From Rickettsiales bacterium (GTDB lineage Bacteria > Pseudomonadota > Alphaproteobacteria > Rickettsiales > JALZUV01): 64,000 nt of DNA. Shown here piece after piece: positions 3,373 to 57,160 of this stretch. Both the position numbers and the translations under genes were made by a program. The DNA lies in NCBI GenBank assembly GCA_029252805.1, contig JAQXAR010000003.1:1-64000 (forward strand), in the 5' to 3' direction. Every line of letters starts with the position of its first letter. The first letter of the stretch is position 1. The notes under the pieces are model-generated. The model did no database searches. It saw nothing but the letters and a program-made list of their open reading frames with translations, and had not been told where the DNA came from.

Positions 3373-4968
3373 ATGTTTGTATCTGTAAAAAACCTATCCA
3401 TTTCATTTGCTAAACCTGAGGGCGGCACTGCTTTTGCGGTGAAAGGGGTTGATTTTGAGATTCAAGAGGGCGAAACCCTCGCTTTGGTGGGAGAGTCTGG
3501 CTCAGGCAAGTCTCTTACGGCGCTTTCATTAATGAAGCTTTTGCCGAGATCAGCGCAAACAAAGGGTCAGTTTGTCTTCCAAGGTGAGGAGGTTCATACA
3601 AAAACAGAACGAGAGATGCAGAAAATACGAGGTTCACGTATTGCAATGATCTTTCAGGAGCCGATGACAGCGCTAAACCCGCTTCATACCATCGGTAAGC
3701 AAATCACAGAGATATTAGAGCGGCATCAACCCTTAAGTAAGAAGTCAGAGCGGTTAGAGCAAATTCACGCACTCTTAGAAGAGGTGGGGTTGGGTAAACT
3801 AAAATCACGTCTAAGTGCCTATCCACATCAATTATCGGGAGGAGAGCGTCAGCGTGTGATGATTGCAATGGCGATTGCGTGTGAACCGGAACTATTATTG
3901 GCCGATGAACCGACAACCGCCGTCGATGTGACACTTCAGGTCCAGATACTTAGGCTGCTGAAAAAGATACAAAAAGAGCGAAATCTATCGATATTATTTA
4001 TTACGCATGATTTGAAAATTGTTGAGCAAATGGCTGATCGAGTTGCCGTATTAAAGCAAGGCGAATTAATTGAAACCTCGTGTGTGAAAACTTTCTTTAA
4101 AAAGCCCAAACATGAATATTCGCGTTTATTATTAGATTCTCGTCCCAAGGGAGAGCCTCCCGCTCCCGCTTTTGAAGGGAATATTGTGATGAGTGCAAAA
4201 GACGTTAGCGTTAAGTTTGCATCGAAGAAGAACCTATGGGGCAAAGTAACTCACTGGAATATAGCAGCAAATGAGATTTCGTTAGAAATTAAGAAGGGGC
4301 AGTCTTTGGGAATTGTCGGAGAGTCTGGTTCCGGTAAAACGACGCTTGCGATGGCTTTGCTTCATTTGCAAAAGGCATCCGGGAAGATTGTCTTTATGGG
4401 AGAAGATATTTCGAATTTTTCCGCATCTGAGCTTCAGAGCTTACGTTCAAAATTACAAATTGTTTTCCAAGACCCTTTTGGGAGTTTAAACCCGCGCTTA
4501 TCGATTGGTGAAATTATCGGTGAGGGGTTAAGGGTTCATCAACCCAAGCTTTCTCGTGAAAACCGCCGAGTCTTGTCTGCTAAGTCATTGGAAGGGCTGG
4601 GGTTATCAGCTGATATGTTGGACCGGTATCCGCATGAGTTTTCTGGTGGGCAGCGGCAGCGCATCGCGATTGCCCGTGCGATGATTTTAAAGCCAGAAAT
4701 CGTCGTTATGGATGAGCCGACATCAGCCCTAGATGTGACCGTACAGGCTCAAATTGTTGAATTACTTAGGGATTTGCAGAATAAAACAGGCGTGAGTTTT
4801 CTTTTCATCAGTCATGATTTGCAGGTAGTTCGCGCGGTTTGTCATGAAGTGATAGTGATGCAGGCCGGAAAACTAGTCGAGCAGGGTTCGGCAAAGCAAA
4901 TATTTGAGAACCCGAAACAAGAATATACACGCAATTTGGTCAATGCTTCATTGGGGGAGGCTTTATGA
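3373..4968 (+). CDS. Double-domain ABC transporter ATPase (YejF/Dpp-Opp type)
   Basis: A 531-residue protein with two complete ATP-binding cassettes, as in YejF of peptide/microcin C importers. Domain 1 has Walker A GESGSGKS (residues 40-47), signature LSGGERQR and Walker B LLLADEPT. Domain 2 has another GESGSGKT, a QIVFQDPFGSLNPR Q-loop, signature FSGGQRQR and VVMDEPTSALD. Both sites look catalytically intact. No permease or binding-protein gene is nearby, so partners must be encoded elsewhere. The last codon overlaps the mnmE start (ATGA), implying translational coupling to a tRNA-modification gene. TAATCT six bases before the ATG may be a -10 element. Confidence 0.88.
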   Translation: MFVSVKNLSISFAKPEGGTAFAVKGVDFEIQEGETLALVGESGSGKSLTALSLMKLLPRSAQTKGQFVFQGEEVHTKTEREMQKIRGSRIAMIFQEPMTALNPLHTIGKQITEILERHQPLSKKSERLEQIHALLEEVGLGKLKSRLSAYPHQLSGGERQRVMIAMAIACEPELLLADEPTTAVDVTLQVQILRLLKKIQKERNLSILFITHDLKIVEQMADRVAVLKQGELIETSCVKTFFKKPKHEYSRLLLDSRPKGEPPAPAFEGNIVMSAKDVSVKFASKKNLWGKVTHWNIAANEISLEIKKGQSLGIVGESGSGKTTLAMALLHLQKASGKIVFMGEDISNFSASELQSLRSKLQIVFQDPFGSLNPRLSIGEIIGEGLRVHQPKLSRENRRVLSAKSLEGLGLSADMLDRYPHEFSGGQRQRIAIARAMILKPEIVVMDEPTSALDVTVQAQIVELLRDLQNKTGVSFLFISHDLQVVRAVCHEVIVMQAGKLVEQGSAKQIFENPKQEYTRNLVNASLGEAL

Positions 4969-6344: not shown

Positions 6345-6360
6345 CGTTTCACGTGAAACA
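6345..6360. promoter_or_regulatory. parS centromere site (15/16 match), overlapping the mnmG start codon
   Basis: CGTTTCACGTGAAACA matches the bacterial parS consensus TGTTTCACGTGAAACA in 15 of 16 positions, and the central 14-bp palindrome is perfect. Its last base is the A of the mnmG ATG. ParB encoded about 3.3 kb downstream is the expected ligand. Bound ParB could also affect mnmG expression, since the site replaces the usual ribosome-binding region. Confidence 0.93.
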
Positions 6361-8213
6361 TGGAAAACAAATTTGATGTAATTATAATTGGCGGCGGACA
6401 TGCCGGAACTGAGGCTGCAAGCGCCTCAGCACGTATTGGCGCGCGTACGCTACTGGTGACACATAAGGCGGAAACTGTGGGTGTAATGTCCTGCAATCCT
6501 GCTATTGGCGGAGTTGGCAAGGGTACGCTAGTTAAAGAGATTGACGCTCTGGGCGGTGTTATGGGGCGTGCGATTGATCGCGCCGGCATTCACTATAAAA
6601 TGTTAAATGCGAGTAAGGGGCCGGCTGTCTGGGGCCCCCGCGCTCAGGCAGACCGTGAATTATATCGAAATGCGGTTCAGGAAATTCTCTTTAATCATCT
6701 GAATCTGTCAATCCGCGAAGACGAAGTAGCCGATCTTTTGATTGAAGGTAGTGTTGTGCTAGGGGTGAAGTTGTCGAATGGTGAAGATATAAAGGCCTCA
6801 AAAGTTGTTCTAACAACCGGCACCTTCTTGAATGGCGTTATTCATTTTGGCCATGAGTCAGAAGGTGCCGGTCGTATAGGAGAGCGCCCCTCTCTATCTT
6901 TGGCCAAGAGGTTGTATGATCTAAAATTAAGGATGGGTCGCTTGAAAACGGGAACCCCTCCCCGCTTAGATCGTGAAACAATTGATTATAACCGATGTGA
7001 ATCTCAGCCCGGAGATGATTCCCCGAGTCCATTCTCGTTCTTAACTACAGAGATTTCGATTCCGCAAATTCCGTGCCATATTACCAGAACGTCCCTAGAG
7101 ACAAAGAAAGTTATAGAAGAGAATATTCATTTATCTGCTATATATGGAGGAAAGATTTCAGGGGCGGCCCCTCGGTATTGTCCGTCGATTGAGGATAAGA
7201 TTTCACGTTTTGCAGATAAAGAAACACATCAAATATTCTTGGAGCCAGAAGGCCTAAATTCTAATTTGGTCTACCCTAATGGACTATCCACTTCTTTGCC
7301 ACGTGGAACACAAGATGCTTTCATTCAGTCTATTCCAGCCTTAGAAAAGGCAAAAATCATCCAATATGGTTATGCAGTTGAGTATGATTATGTTGACCCT
7401 CGCGAATTGCGCTCCACCTTAGAGCTGAAAAGGATTCCAGGTCTGTATATGGCGGGGCAGATTAATGGAACAACCGGATATGAGGAGGCGGGTGGGCAGG
7501 GCCTTGTTGCGGGTGCAAATGCGGCGCTGAGTTTTAGCAATCAGTCGCTCACCCTCTCTCGAAAAGAGTCTTATATCGGGGTGATGATTGATGATTTGAC
7601 GGCTCTGGGGGCGAGTGAGCCCTATCGAATGTTTACTTCTCGAGCGGAGCATCGATTGATCCTTCGCCAAGATAATGCCGACCGTCGATTGACCCAAAGG
7701 GGTCGAGAGCTGAATCTGGTTGATGATAGCCGGTGGGAGTTGTTTGCCGTGAAAAATGAAGAAATTCAGCAATGGAAATCGGTCATGGCTCAGGTTATGA
7801 TGGCCCCGACTGAATTGGTTAAGCATGGAATAGAGGTGAAGCAAGATGGTCGTCGGCGTGCTATTTCAGAATTAATAGCTCACCGGCTGATGGGTTGGGA
7901 GGATGCTGAAGCGATTAGTCCGGCTTTTAAGGCTATACCCCCGGTGATCCGACGGGCATTGGAAAATGACTCTCTCTATGCTGCGTTTGAGGCTCGCCAT
8001 AATCATGAGGTTGTGGCATTTGAAGAAATGCAGAATGTACGCCTTCCGGACGGCTTTGATTATTGGGCGATTAATGGATTGTCTTCCGAGCTCTCCGAAA
8101 AGTTGTCCTTGGCTCGTCCTGAAGCGATGTCACAAGTGAAGCGAATTGAAGGGATTACACCTTCTGCGGTTGCGGCGATTCTTGTCGCTTTGCGGAAACG
8201 AAAGGTCGCGTAA
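6360..8213 (+). CDS. mnmG: tRNA uridine-5-carboxymethylaminomethyl modification enzyme MnmG (GidA)
   Basis: A 617-residue FAD enzyme that, with MnmE, installs carboxymethylaminomethyl groups on tRNA wobble uridine. The FAD-binding motif [10 protein letters not shown] lies near the N-terminus, followed by [10 protein letters not shown]. Later signatures are [16 protein letters not shown], and [21 protein letters not shown]. The length is typical. The start is fixed by the family N-terminus ([13 protein letters not shown]). Unusually, the parS palindrome abuts the ATG and no Shine-Dalgarno sequence is seen. The stop TAA shares one base with the rsmG ATG. Confidence 0.97.
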
Positions 8214-38778: not shown

Positions 38779-39681
38779 TTAGGCGGCTTTGGCTGATACT
38801 TCTTCAAACTGGTAAAGCTTCTGCGCATTGCTATAGAGCAGCTGCATCTGTAGCATTTCGAAAGATTTATTGCTTTTACTCGCCGTTAGCTCAATCAGAC
38901 GATTGAGGTAATTAACGATCATTTCATAGCCGATCACTTCCAGGTTCTTTTGGCCAGAAAACTGACTGCCTTTTTCAACCACCGGGCCAGCAAAAGGAGC
39001 ATCCGATGCGCCGAGGATCAGTTGGCTATCGCCAAACATCTTAATGATTTTCACCAAGAAGGGTGCGGTCTTTCTCGGTTCGAAACTGGTGCGATAGCCG
39101 GGGCCTTTAAAGTAAATCGGTTGGCCGCCCTTAAAACGCGAAGAAAGATCAGCAAGTAGTAGCGCATAATCATTCTGGTTTTCGCCCTCATGCGCATTGG
39201 GCATACCCAGATGGTCGATCAAGAGTGTAAGGTCGTTCGGTAGCTGCGCCACCAGTGCGCGAGCCAGCGCCGGAGTGCCAAACACACAAATATGTTTTTT
39301 AGAGTGACGTATGAGCGTGAATAATCGGTCCCATTTTGCTTTATCTGCCGCGAAATTGGGAATTCCGGTTATCCCGTAAAGGCGGATCCCGGCGACATTT
39401 GGTTGTTTAATCCAATCAAAGCTGCGGGCATCTTCGATATTACCACGAATGATACCTTTGGCGGGGATCCCGGCGGCGGCTAGGGGGGCGAGCGACTCCA
39501 TCACATGATCGGAGGTTTAAGCCATGCTGAAATCGACAATCACGGTGCCTGCAGGTCGGTTCGCTTGTAAGCCCTTGGTATAAGTTTCCACCGAGTTAAA
39601 ACGACCCTTAATGAGCACGGGCTTTTTGCCCGCGGTTTCTTTTGTGAAAATATGTGCGTGGCTATCGATCCATTGGGTCAT
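38779..39681 (-). pseudogene. Amidohydrolase (TIM-barrel metal hydrolase) interrupted by an in-frame TAA
   Basis: Read from ATG 39681, the gene starts MTQWIDSHAHIFTKE, carrying the HxH metal-binding motif of amidohydrolase-2 enzymes. Codon 55 is TAA (39517-39519). The same frame then continues for 245 more codons through HVMESLAPLAAAGIPAKG, LLIDHLGMPN and LGASDAPF, with the metal-ligand His and Asp of the family. The downstream part alone (GTG start at 39504) would lack the HxH strand and should be inactive. A single base change (for example GAA or CAA to TAA) would explain it. The start overlaps the nitrilase stop by four bases, so the two form an operon. Confidence 0.8.
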
Positions 39682-40496
39682 AAGGTGAACTTTCTATCAT
39701 GGTTTAAGCTGGGCATAAGTTGGCGAGTTTGGGGGACTTCGGCAAGGTCAATCTCGGCGTAGATAATACCTGGTTGGCCGGACCCTTCGGCGAGGATTTC
39801 GCCCCAAGGGTTGATGATAAGCGAGTGGCCATAGGTTTTACGGCTAGCCCAATGTTCGCCGCATTGAGCGGGGGCGATTACAAAACACCCGGTTTCCATC
39901 GCGCGGGCGCGGCACAGGACATGCCAGCCGCCTTTTTCACCGGTAAATTGGGTAAAGGCGGCGGGGATAGTCAGAATCTCGGCACCGGCTTTGGCGAGCG
40001 CACGGTAAAGGTAAGGGAAGCGCACATCATAGCAGATGGATAATCCGAGCGCCGCATTTGCCGCTTTGGTCAGGATGGCCTGCTCGCCATATTCAAACCG
40101 CGCCGATTCCTGATGCGATTCGCCTTGGGGGATAGAAATATCGAACAGGTGAATTTTATCATAGCGCGCGGTGATGTCTGCGTTAGGGGAAATAATAAGT
40201 TGTCGATTGGCGTATTTGCGTGCATCGACTGTATCTTTCACCGTGACGCTGCCGATGATAATCCAAACATTCAGTTCTATTGCCCAAAATTGCGCGGCGG
40301 CAATGCCCGGATGTTCGTTCTCTAAGGTGACTTGTTCATGGAATTTTCGCCCTGAGGCCATAAGGAAAGCATTTTCAGGCAAGGCAATCAACGTCGCGCC
40401 CTCGGCTGCAGCTTGTCTCACCATGGGTGCGATCATCATGATATTATCTTGGATCGAATCCGTACTGGTGATTTGAATGCAGGCGAGTTTCATCAT
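39678..40496 (-). CDS. Nitrilase-superfamily carbon-nitrogen hydrolase (Nit2/omega-amidase-like)
   Basis: A 272-residue amidase of the nitrilase superfamily. The Glu-Lys-Cys triad is visible in IALPENAF, YDKIHLFD and LSICYDVRFP, with the second Glu region following. Members similar to Nit2 and deaminated-glutathione amidases have this length and layout. It is the first gene of a two-gene transcript with the interrupted amidohydrolase. The ATG is one of two consecutive Met codons. The substrate is not predictable. Confidence 0.87.
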   Translation of the reverse strand: MMKLACIQITSTDSIQDNIMMIAPMVRQAAAEGATLIALPENAFLMASGRKFHEQVTLENEHPGIAAAQFWAIELNVWIIIGSVTVKDTVDARKYANRQLIISPNADITARYDKIHLFDISIPQGESHQESARFEYGEQAILTKAANAALGLSICYDVRFPYLYRALAKAGAEILTIPAAFTQFTGEKGGWHVLCRARAMETGCFVIAPAQCGEHWASRKTYGHSLIINPWGEILAEGSGQPGIIYAEIDLAEVPQTRQLMPSLNHDRKFTL

Positions 40497-40561: not shown

Positions 40562-40589
40562 TTAAGTTGTCATGAAGCGCGCGTATAAT
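40562..40589 (+). promoter_or_regulatory. Promoter TTAAGT - 16 bp - TATAAT for the cloverleaf RNA / small lipoprotein gene
   Basis: A perfect TATAAT (40584-40589) with TTAAGT 16 bp upstream. The expected transcription start, about seven bases after the -10, coincides with 40596, the first base of a 10-bp stem. The coincidence of promoter and RNA structure supports both. Confidence 0.6.
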
Positions 40590-40595
40590 ACTCCT

Positions 40596-40694
40596 GTTCC
40601 CTTGTGTCTTTGATTTTTAAAGACCACTATATTTGATTTATTAATATCAAATCTCAGTCTGAGTTTTTCTAAAACTCTACAAGGGAACGTTTTT
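40596..40694 (+). ncRNA. Predicted cloverleaf-structured RNA (sRNA or 5' leader), no known family
   Basis: GTTCCCTTGT (40596-40605) is perfectly complementary to ACAAGGGAAC (40679-40688). Between these arms are three successive perfect hairpins: GTCTTT/AAAGAC (40606-40624), ATTTGAT/ATCAAAT (40631-40652) and GAGTTTT/AAAACTC (40661-40677), making a four-way junction with short linkers. A TTTTT run at 40690-40694 directly follows the closing stem, so it could terminate transcription or act as a regulated leader for the lipoprotein gene starting at 40719. I do not recognise a riboswitch or sRNA class. Confidence 0.6.
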
Positions 40695-40718: not shown

Positions 40719-41057
40719 ATGAAACGATTCCTTTTATTAACTATCTTCGCGATAGTAACAACTCTCTATTTTAGCAGCTGCGATTCTTTCAAAGCTGATC
40801 CACTCGTTTCCGCTTCCGAAAGACTTCACGAAGCATGTGAAGCTGATGGATTTCTTAGTTGGAAAGCCTGTGCGGAGATTGAAGTGGTCAGAGGCTTACA
40901 AGCAACCCGAAAACATCTTTTAGAGGAAAAGGCTGCAGGTAACTGTGTCCCGGCGCTCGTGATGAAGACCTATCTTTCAGCAGCTAAATCTTATTGTCAG
41001 AATGATGATGAGAAAAAGTTGGTGGAACGACAGGTCAAGGATGTGCCGCGCTGCTAA
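40719..41057 (+). CDS. Small hypothetical lipoprotein with conserved-looking cysteines
   Basis: A 112-residue protein with a lipoprotein-type signal (LLLTIFAIVTTLYFSSC, lipobox FSSC). The mature part is mostly helical and contains further cysteines in EACEAD, KACAEI, NCVPAL, SYCQND and the terminal PRC, which could form disulfides in the periplasm. No family is recognised. It lies 25 bp after the U-run of the cloverleaf RNA and is followed by a strong terminator. No clear ribosome binding site precedes the ATG. Confidence 0.6.
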   Translation: MKRFLLLTIFAIVTTLYFSSCDSFKADPLVSASERLHEACEADGFLSWKACAEIEVVRGLQATRKHLLEEKAAGNCVPALVMKTYLSAAKSYCQNDDEKKLVERQVKDVPRC

Positions 41058-41081: not shown

Positions 41082-41124
41082 AAAAGGCTCAATACGTAAT
41101 TTTTTATTACGGGTTGAGCCTTTT
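41082..41124 (+). terminator. Strong intrinsic terminator
   Basis: AAAAGGCTCAA (41082-41092) pairs with TTGAGCCTTTT (41114-41124), and an inner CGTAAT/ATTACG stem extends the hairpin around a T-rich loop. A T-rich tail follows. It ends the lipoprotein transcript and separates it from metE. Confidence 0.85.
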
Positions 41125-41153
41125 CTTTTGCCTAAATTTACAGTTATTCTTGG

Positions 41154-41162
41154 TGGTATAAT
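41154..41162 (+). promoter_or_regulatory. Extended -10 promoter (TGGTATAAT) for metE
   Basis: TGG precedes a perfect TATAAT (41157-41162), matching an extended -10 element. Transcription from about 41169 would give a leader near 130 nt before metE. The leader holds a nested stem: TTAGGT (41180-41185) with ACCTAA (41220-41225), enclosing GTGGAA with TTCCGC (41192-41215, one G-U pair). I do not recognise a known SAM or cobalamin riboswitch in it. Confidence 0.5.
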
Positions 41163-41299
41163 AGGAATCAACATGCATATTAGGTGAAAAATGTGGAATT
41201 CGGGCTATCTTCCGCTTGAACCTAAGGAAATTCTGCGTCATGTTGCTTGCTCGCTCTTTTTGAAAGGGTGAATTAATAGATAAACCAAGGAGTAAGAAC

Positions 41300-55003: not shown

Positions 55004-56692
55004 ATGGCTTTAAATTCAATCAATACAAACATTGCTGCGCTTTCCGCACAGCAAAACATTAACAGAGCTTCTTCATCTGCAGGTGGCTCAATTGCTCGTT
55101 TGTCTAGTGGTAATCGTATCACTCGTGCAGCGGATGATGTGGCTAGCCTATCGGTTGGTACTTCACTTCGTACGCAGGTGACTACACTACGTCAAGCGTT
55201 GGTAAACAGTAACCAAGCGAATAGCTTGCTACAGGTTGCCGATGGCGCACTTGGCCAAGTAACTGACATTCTACAACGTCAAAAATCAATTTCGGTGCAA
55301 GCCGGTTCTGGTTCATTGACCGATACAGAACGTGGTTTCTTGAACCAAGAATTCCAAGCACTCGCTCAAGAAATTGACCGTCTCGTAGACAGCACTAACT
55401 TTAACGGTGTGTCGCTTATCGGTGGTGGATTGGGTAATTCAACTTCAATTATTGATACTGACGCTCAAGTTGCGACGATTAACTTGGCTGGTACTGACGC
55501 GACCGTGACCAACGCGGCTGTTTCTATCCAAGCATTCAACACTGATACTGGTGCTGAGTTGCAAGGTGTAGCTGCAGCGGGTGAAGTAGAACTTGTTGCT
55601 GCTGATGGTACAACTCCATTAACAGATGGTGAGTATCTCGGTGTTAACTCTGCGGTAGCCGGTGCATTCGATAGCTTCACGCTTTCAAATGTGACCTATG
55701 GTGCGGCAAACGTTGGTACTGCGACTCTAACCGTATCAATCGGTGGTACTGATTTTACCGGTAACGTAGTTGCAGGTGCAACTAGTGTAGTTGTTTCAAA
55801 CGGTGAAACGCGTATCGGTTTAGGTGTTACAGCAGTTGCTTTAACAGATGCTGGTACCGTGGCACTTGCTGAAGTGACACTAGATAATGACTTCGTTGAT
55901 ACGGAGATCGTTCGTACATCTACCGTTACTGGAGTAGACTTTTCTGGTACGGCACTTGAAGGTGCTGTCGGTTCGGCTGCATTTGGTGGTACTGCTGCAG
56001 TTCGTGTTGGTACTTCAGGTGATGTTGATATTTCAAACTTCAATTATGTTTCAGGGGCTGCGGCCAATACGAACATTCTGACGGTTGATATTAACGGTGA
56101 AACCTACACGGCGACCGCTGTAACAGATCTTATCTCTGCTGCAACGAACATCGTGTTCACTAACGGTGACCAAGAAGCACTCAATGTTAACCTGACCGGT
56201 ATTGCGGCTGCGGATAACATCACGAACATTCGTACTGAAACAGATGATCGTGCTGATTTCCTCAATGCACTAAACACTGCATTCTCTCGTTCAGGCGGTG
56301 GTTTGAACTTTGCGGTTGGTGCAAGTGCTACTGATACAATCCGTGTGCAAATTAGCGATACGTCGACTAACGCGCTTTACGGTGGTCAAGCACTAACGGT
56401 TGCTTCTTCTGCAGAAGCAGATGTAGCGTCAGCGGCAATTGATATTGCGATTAAGAACGTAACTGCAGTTCGTGCCAACGTTGGTGCATTGCAATCTCGT
56501 TTTGACTTTGCATCCGCTAACGTTGAAAGCTCAATCCAAAATCAGGATGCCGCTCGTGGTACTCTTTTGGATACTGATATCTCGGCTGAATCTACTGCCT
56601 TTGCTTCGGCTCAGGTACAGTTACAGGCTGGTATCTCCGTGTTAGCTCAGGCAAATCTGTTACCACAGAACTTGCTCAAGTTGATCGGTTAA
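55004..56692 (+). CDS. Flagellin
   Basis: A 562-residue filament subunit. The N-terminal D0/D1 region is classical: SINTNIAALSAQQNINRASSS, RLSSGNRITRAADDVASLSV and SLLQVADGALGQVTDILQR. The C-terminal D1/D0 has RANVGALQSRFDFASANVES, DTDISAESTAFASAQVQLQAG and LAQANLLPQNLLKLIG. The roughly 300-residue centre is Val/Thr/Ala-rich beta structure exposed on the filament surface. AGGAG precedes the ATG. The only flagellin gene in the window; whether paralogues exist is unknown. Confidence 0.96.
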   Translation: MALNSINTNIAALSAQQNINRASSSAGGSIARLSSGNRITRAADDVASLSVGTSLRTQVTTLRQALVNSNQANSLLQVADGALGQVTDILQRQKSISVQAGSGSLTDTERGFLNQEFQALAQEIDRLVDSTNFNGVSLIGGGLGNSTSIIDTDAQVATINLAGTDATVTNAAVSIQAFNTDTGAELQGVAAAGEVELVAADGTTPLTDGEYLGVNSAVAGAFDSFTLSNVTYGAANVGTATLTVSIGGTDFTGNVVAGATSVVVSNGETRIGLGVTAVALTDAGTVALAEVTLDNDFVDTEIVRTSTVTGVDFSGTALEGAVGSAAFGGTAAVRVGTSGDVDISNFNYVSGAAANTNILTVDINGETYTATAVTDLISAATNIVFTNGDQEALNVNLTGIAAADNITNIRTETDDRADFLNALNTAFSRSGGGLNFAVGASATDTIRVQISDTSTNALYGGQALTVASSAEADVASAAIDIAIKNVTAVRANVGALQSRFDFASANVESSIQNQDAARGTLLDTDISAESTAFASAQVQLQAGISVLAQANLLPQNLLKLIG

Positions 56693-56704
56693 TTTTGAAC
56701 TGAC

Positions 56705-56732
56705 GGAGATGGGGGTTTCGGCCCCCATCTCC
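56705..56732 (+). terminator. Stable hairpin after flagellin lacking a U-tract
   Basis: GGAGATGGGGG pairs perfectly with CCCCCATCTCC around TTTCGG, an 11-bp GC-rich stem 13 bp after the flagellin stop. No T-run follows, so it may stabilise the 3' end of the abundant flagellin mRNA or give partial termination before flaG. Confidence 0.65.
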
Positions 56733-56773
56733 AGCGTTCACTAGCATAATAAAGTTTAAGGGAGTTTGGAAAA

Positions 56774-57160
56774 ATGGAAATTAGCGGAGTAAATGCTCAG
56801 CCATCCAATCCCGTATTTAGCGGGGCCAAGAAGGCAGAGGCAGTCAAAGAAGTTGCGCCACAAACGCAAAATGTACAACCAGACAAGGTTGTATCTCAGG
56901 AACAACAAGTACAAGATGTGCAGCGCACAGAACGACAACGCTTAGATACCGTTGTTCGTGCGGCCTCACAATTTAAGAATACCTACGCCGTAAGTGATAC
57001 GACTTTCAGTATTTTCAAAGACAGTAGCGGACAGTTTGTCACTCGCTTTACGAGTCTGAAGGATGGGTCAGTCACCTATATCCCAGAACCGGATATTGAG
57101 CGCTTCATTGCAAGCAATAATGCCCGGCACAGTAGTGCAAATATCTCAATCGACGTTTAA
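56774..57160 (+). CDS. flaG: FlaG family protein
   Basis: A 128-residue protein. The Gln/Lys-rich N-terminal half looks disordered (KEVAPQTQNVQPDKVVSQEQ). The C-terminal half has the FlaG-like pattern: TTFSIFKDSSGQFVTRFTSLKDGSVTYIPEPDIERFI, similar to the LxFxxDExTGRxVVxVxDxxTGEVIRQIP region of FlaG. FlaG proteins influence filament length and lie between flagellin and fliD in many bacteria, as here. The ribosome binding site is GGGAG upstream of the ATG. Confidence 0.8.
   Translation: MEISGVNAQPSNPVFSGAKKAEAVKEVAPQTQNVQPDKVVSQEQQVQDVQRTERQRLDTVVRAASQFKNTYAVSDTTFSIFKDSSGQFVTRFTSLKDGSVTYIPEPDIERFIASNNARHSSANISIDV

Follow-up and report, generated by a model that had tools for sequence, protein, structure and literature searches.

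Positions 40596-40688 of the window (the whole stretch of DNA analysed, 64,000 nucleotides) hold a nested set of pairings which is real, statistically strong and not a product of chance. The structure is followed by a run of five T and then by a gene for a small cysteine-rich putative lipoprotein. It may plausibly be a terminated leader or an sRNA, in either case an orphan, and is probably a small RNA which doubles as the leader of that gene. The reading we prefer, to which we give a probability of about one half, is that of a lineage-specific transcription unit in which a strong branched intrinsic terminator serves as the leader and the lipoprotein mRNA is produced by read-through. The features of the locus are listed below in order of position.

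39678-40496, minus strand: carbon-nitrogen hydrolase (amidase) gene, divergent, upstream of the RNA element
40584-40589, plus strand: TATAAT, candidate -10 element, read from the sequence
40596-40605, plus strand: 5' arm of the closing stem, from the fold; 40596 is the predicted transcription start, placed by its spacing from TATAAT
40606-40624, plus strand: hairpin 1 (40606-40613 with 40617-40624), from the fold; 8 bp with one G-U pair, triloop
40626-40658, plus strand: hairpin 2 (core 40631-40637 with 40646-40652), from the fold; 7 bp, 8-nt loop, outer 3-bp ACU/AGU clamp
40661-40677, plus strand: hairpin 3 (40661-40667 with 40671-40677), from the fold; 7 bp, triloop UCU
40679-40688, plus strand: 3' arm of the closing stem, from the fold
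40690-40694, plus strand: U5 tract, read from the sequence; with the closing stem, an intrinsic-terminator-like end
40719-41057, plus strand: very probable gene, by codon score, for an orphan 112-aa Cys-rich putative lipoprotein; signal peptide ending FSSC-D
41082-41131, plus strand: long hairpin with T-run, from fold scan and sequence, able to fold on either strand; the unit probably ends here, ahead of metE
41300 onwards: metE, downstream of the lipoprotein gene

Fold of the predicted RNA element

The minimum free energy (MFE) structure of 40596-40688 was a four-way junction of -30.4 kcal/mol in which a perfect 10-bp closing stem, GTTCCCTTGT (40596-40605) paired with ACAAGGGAAC (40679-40688), encloses three hairpins. 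The closing stem and all three hairpins were present in both the MFE and the centroid structures, with pair probabilities of 0.90-1.00 in the outer stem and near 1 in the hairpin cores. An earlier, sequence-only reading of this DNA had described the 10-bp stem with three hairpins of 6, 7 and 7 bp, and all of these were recovered, hairpin 1 having 8 bp including one G-U pair. The strands at the junction measure 0-2 nt, and plain AU-rich helices make up most of the arms. Little of the RNA is left unpaired beyond the 8-nt loop UUAUUAAU and the triloops. The pair-probability analysis revealed no competing (antiterminator) fold, with the closing stem near 1.

None of 5000 dinucleotide shuffles reached the energy of the native sequence (z -6.2), and a comparison with 200 shuffles gave a z of -6.8 for the four-way-junction fold. 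To allow for the look-elsewhere effect, 357 kb of sequence from this genome, the window being part of it, was surveyed for perfect 9-bp inverted repeats enclosing 50-130 nt, and a fold was kept if its closing stem survived in the MFE structure together with at least three hairpins. The fold at 40596-40688 ranked first by z-score among the 79 cases obtained over the two strands. Its score (-6.95) and that of its own reverse complement (-6.88) were the top two, and the next unrelated fold scored -5.74. The sequence-only reading had held that such nested perfect pairings were very unlikely by chance, and the shuffles and the survey both bear this out. Ranked by GC-corrected MFE only, the fold was among the strongest of the window and not the strongest, several of the others being simple hairpins. 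Perfect 10-bp inverted repeats at the spacing of the closing stem occurred 5 times in the window against a mean of 5.8 in shuffles; the closing stem by itself is ordinary and the rarity belongs to the whole nest.

Promoter-like and terminator-like signals

As candidate signals for a promoter and a terminator of its own, the element has the TATAAT and the U5 tract, and the -35 is absent, no upstream hexamer reaching 4 of 6 in a promoter scan. The perfect TATAAT noted earlier at 40584-40589 is indeed there, 6 nt ahead of the closing stem, which predicts a start at 40596. Mapped sRNAs of Rickettsia conorii have a -10 close to TATAAT and a weakly conserved -35 (PMC5105140), and the missing -35 is therefore not fatal. 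TATAAT occurs 205 times in 714,270 strand-bases (approx. 0.0003 per base) and TTTTT at 0.0024 per base. Calibration of start sites by TATAAT-to-ATG spacing, following the leaderless-mRNA idea, was dropped, with no enrichment seen among 278 ORFs.

An intrinsic terminator needs a stem that is completed just upstream of a U-run. Folding of successively longer transcripts gave the full closing stem as the last step, immediately ahead of the U-run. The TTTTT had been described as following the stem directly; the run is present at 40690-40694 and starts one base past the stem, with G40689 intervening. A stable stem followed by a U-tract, as in an intrinsic-terminator leader, was thus found, and the U-tract is weak and short (U5).

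The reverse strand folds equally well (-31.6 kcal/mol) and, since there is hardly a pair that is not Watson-Crick, the fold alone cannot reveal the strand. TATAAT, U5 and the one G-U pair in hairpin 1 favour the plus strand as the one likely to be transcribed. What comes after the structure on the minus strand is AGGAGTAT and not a T-run.

In the terminated-leader reading that we prefer, transcription would start at about 40596, seven bases after TATAAT, and the nascent RNA would fold its three hairpins in order. The closing stem would zip as base 40688 emerges, just ahead of U5, and much of the transcription would stop at U5, the product being a compact RNA of some 95-99 nt with protected ends, which may or may not act in trans. 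Polymerases that read through would transcribe the lipoprotein gene and go on to the 41082-41131 hairpin. The structure would then be a built-in transcription attenuator that keeps the lipoprotein at a low level. A GC-containing stem and then a U-run, as here 24 bases before an ORF, are also seen in intrinsic-terminator attenuators of 5' leaders. Unlike in those attenuators, the stem of the element encloses 73 nt and three hairpins in place of a short loop, the U-run is short, and no antiterminator was found. Counting against the preferred reading are the lack of a -35 match, the equally good fold of the opposite strand, the lack of an alternative pairing for the closing stem, a U5 that is short for a terminator and set off from the stem by a G, the missing Shine-Dalgarno ahead of the lipoprotein gene, and the lack of a homologue, in the genomes searched, that could show covariation.

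The lipoprotein gene and its surroundings

The 112 aa encoded by the ORF at 40719-41057 include several cysteines and a signal of the lipoprotein type. The ORF had a codon score of 0.093 in frame and of -0.23 to -0.43 in the other five frames (the 38 larger ORFs in the window averaged 0.204, sd 0.051); since the score is positive in its own frame only, the ORF is very probably a gene. No Shine-Dalgarno was seen ahead of its ATG, and many genes here have weak ones. Relatives of the protein were found neither in Pfam, NCBIfam, PHROGs or PDB, nor in 343 genomes of the order and 385 sampled from the class, nor in viral contigs, plasmids and phages; a scan of 84,980 species genomes, by short peptides only, also gave none. 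A single-sequence AlphaFold2 model had a mean pLDDT of 68, and a fold comparison with PDB gave nothing with E below 2. In a read-through RNA a weak hairpin around the ATG would be possible (CGUUU/AAACG, AUGUC/GACAU), marginally better than shuffles.

The RNA element and the lipoprotein gene are flanked by two conserved genes, the amidase gene and metE, which are transcribed away from each other. The amidase product resembles deaminated-glutathione amidase, and its score falls short of the curated cut-off for this name. The lipoprotein ATG comes only 24 bases after the U-run, too close for a separate promoter to fit in after the structure. With a divergent gene upstream and this short gap, a plus-strand transcript of the lipoprotein gene, if made, would have to start before or within the structure. 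The sequence-only reading had offered two alternatives, a new sRNA or a leader of the lipoprotein gene. Both fit the locus; with the gap as short as it is, they are not mutually exclusive.

We regard it as unlikely that the element is an independent sRNA of some 97 nt which acts in trans and has a promoter and a terminator to itself, with the lipoprotein gene incidental or transcribed only by leakage. Both ends of such an RNA would coincide with the promoter-like and terminator-like signals, and in R. conorii it is usual for orphan sRNAs to have a TATAAT and to lack an Rfam match (PMC5105140). This reading would, however, leave the same-strand gene 24 bases downstream with no other promoter space; the RNA has little single-stranded seed (the 8-nt loop UUAUUAAU and the triloops), and no homologue was found in the genomes of the order or class searched. 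The likeness to the lineage-specific sRNAs and leaders of R. conorii (PMC5105140) extends to an intergenic position, a strong TATAAT with weakly conserved -35, predicted hairpins, the lack of an Rfam match and a narrow distribution. The R. conorii sRNAs differ in that they were detected by RNA-seq at 120-373 nt, whereas the element, in a different genome that is probably from the same order, is approx. 97 nt and predicted from sequence.

In the one congener compared, the amidase gene and metE lie 80 bp apart, with neither the RNA element nor the lipoprotein gene between them. This genome is 86% complete, and the absence at the locus was read directly from one contig. Outside the genus the amidase gene adjoined metE in no locus examined, and gain of the unit can therefore not be distinguished from its loss. 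The congener metE (L027:520-1796) aligns over the first 389 residues alone, out of 768, and continues into an unrelated short tail, which suggests that the gene is truncated or the contig rearranged.

The hairpin at 41082-41131, between the lipoprotein gene and metE, is very stable and has T-runs usable on both strands; it gave a weak, sub-threshold match to ctRNA_p42d (18.5 bits, gathering score 50). The 168-bp stretch from 41132 to 41299, before metE, matched none of the riboswitches in Rfam, also when the threshold was permissive.

Search for relatives of the predicted RNA and comparison with known RNAs

The Rfam scan that the sequence-only reading had called for, after recognising no family, returned nothing at gathering score and only chance-level matches at permissive thresholds. 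A covariance model built from the single sequence of 40596-40688 yielded no credible homologue in the 343 genomes of the order, the 385 sampled from the class, or 87 loci around related amidase and flanking genes. Its best candidate (24.4 bits) was rejected, with many broken pairs and overlap with ORFs. Covarying homologues, by which a conserved structured RNA family would be recognised, were thus absent from these 343 and 385 genomes. DNA searches of the 343 genomes gave only AT-rich chance matches of 20-40 nt, and BLASTN against plasmids and phages gave none or short chance matches. In viral contigs the exact-stem pattern was not found, and seven matches to a version with a 9-bp stem were rejected, as they do not fold alike. 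The element is single copy in its own genome, where the second match to the covariance model was weak (19.9 bits). No target-site duplication was visible beside the stem, and the flanks, CTCCT and GTTTT, differ.

These searches bear on a reading in which the palindrome acts at the DNA level, as the relic of a small mobile element or as a cruciform or protein-binding site, and RNA folding is a by-product. Both strands fold equally well with nearly all pairs Watson-Crick, the segment is AT-rich relative to its surroundings, and the RNA and the lipoprotein gene are missing together between the same two genes of the congener. We nevertheless hold this to be rather improbable, given a single genomic copy with no duplicated target site, the absence of matches from the plasmid, phage and viral collections, and the different folding of the 9-bp stem matches.

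A closing stem joins the 5' and 3' ends of the element, as it does in 6S RNA and the bacterial small SRP RNA, the latter also being of similar length. The Rfam models of both do not match the element and do match elsewhere in the genome; with its own 6S and SRP RNAs encoded there, the element is neither. With three hairpins inside a closing stem, all within some 90 nt, the element also recalls the tRNA cloverleaf. The stem is, however, 10 bp long, there is no TPsiC-type arm, and ARAGORN found no tRNA or tmRNA in the element.

A ligand- or protein-responsive riboregulator of a new class, such as a riboswitch or a T-box-like attenuator, would suit the position, the terminator-like end and the four-way junction, and is very improbable in view of the 0-2 nt junction strands, the plain AU-rich arms, the lack of a competing structure and the lack of conservation from which an aptamer could be defined. 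We attach just as little credence to a new class of compact four-way-junction RNA which would sense a signal, toggle between terminator and read-through by its closing stem and so control a lineage-specific envelope lipoprotein. Since no antiterminator, aptamer-like junction or exposed seed was found, we claim neither a riboswitch nor a particular role in trans; a ligand, an antiterminator or a target is not supported. There is likewise no evidence for a new RNA class, and a structure from a single genome without known relatives cannot found one. If it is transcribed, the element would represent an orphan structured RNA carrying a branched terminator, from a little-known lineage of Alphaproteobacteria. 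It would have been gained or lost, between two conserved genes, along with the orphan lipoprotein gene, and so be a modest illustration of the way in which new regulatory units come about.

Other folds were seen in the same genome. The next-best unrelated closed multi-hairpin fold of the 357-kb survey (z -5.7) lies on the minus strand of another contig (C10, L145:4707-4828) and has no Rfam match. Downstream of it on that strand is a lipoprotein-like gene (4085-4630, minus), and a separate terminator-like hairpin with TTTTTT lies between the two. Downstream, CTCCCAGAC is complementary to GTCTGGGAG inside the 4707-4828 structure, so that a switch is conceivable at that locus. A transposase-like ORF is found nearby. 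Within the window, the strongest long hairpins by GC-corrected energy were those at 6779-6902 and 56639-56782, on both strands, the former sitting inside a long ORF (6360-8213).
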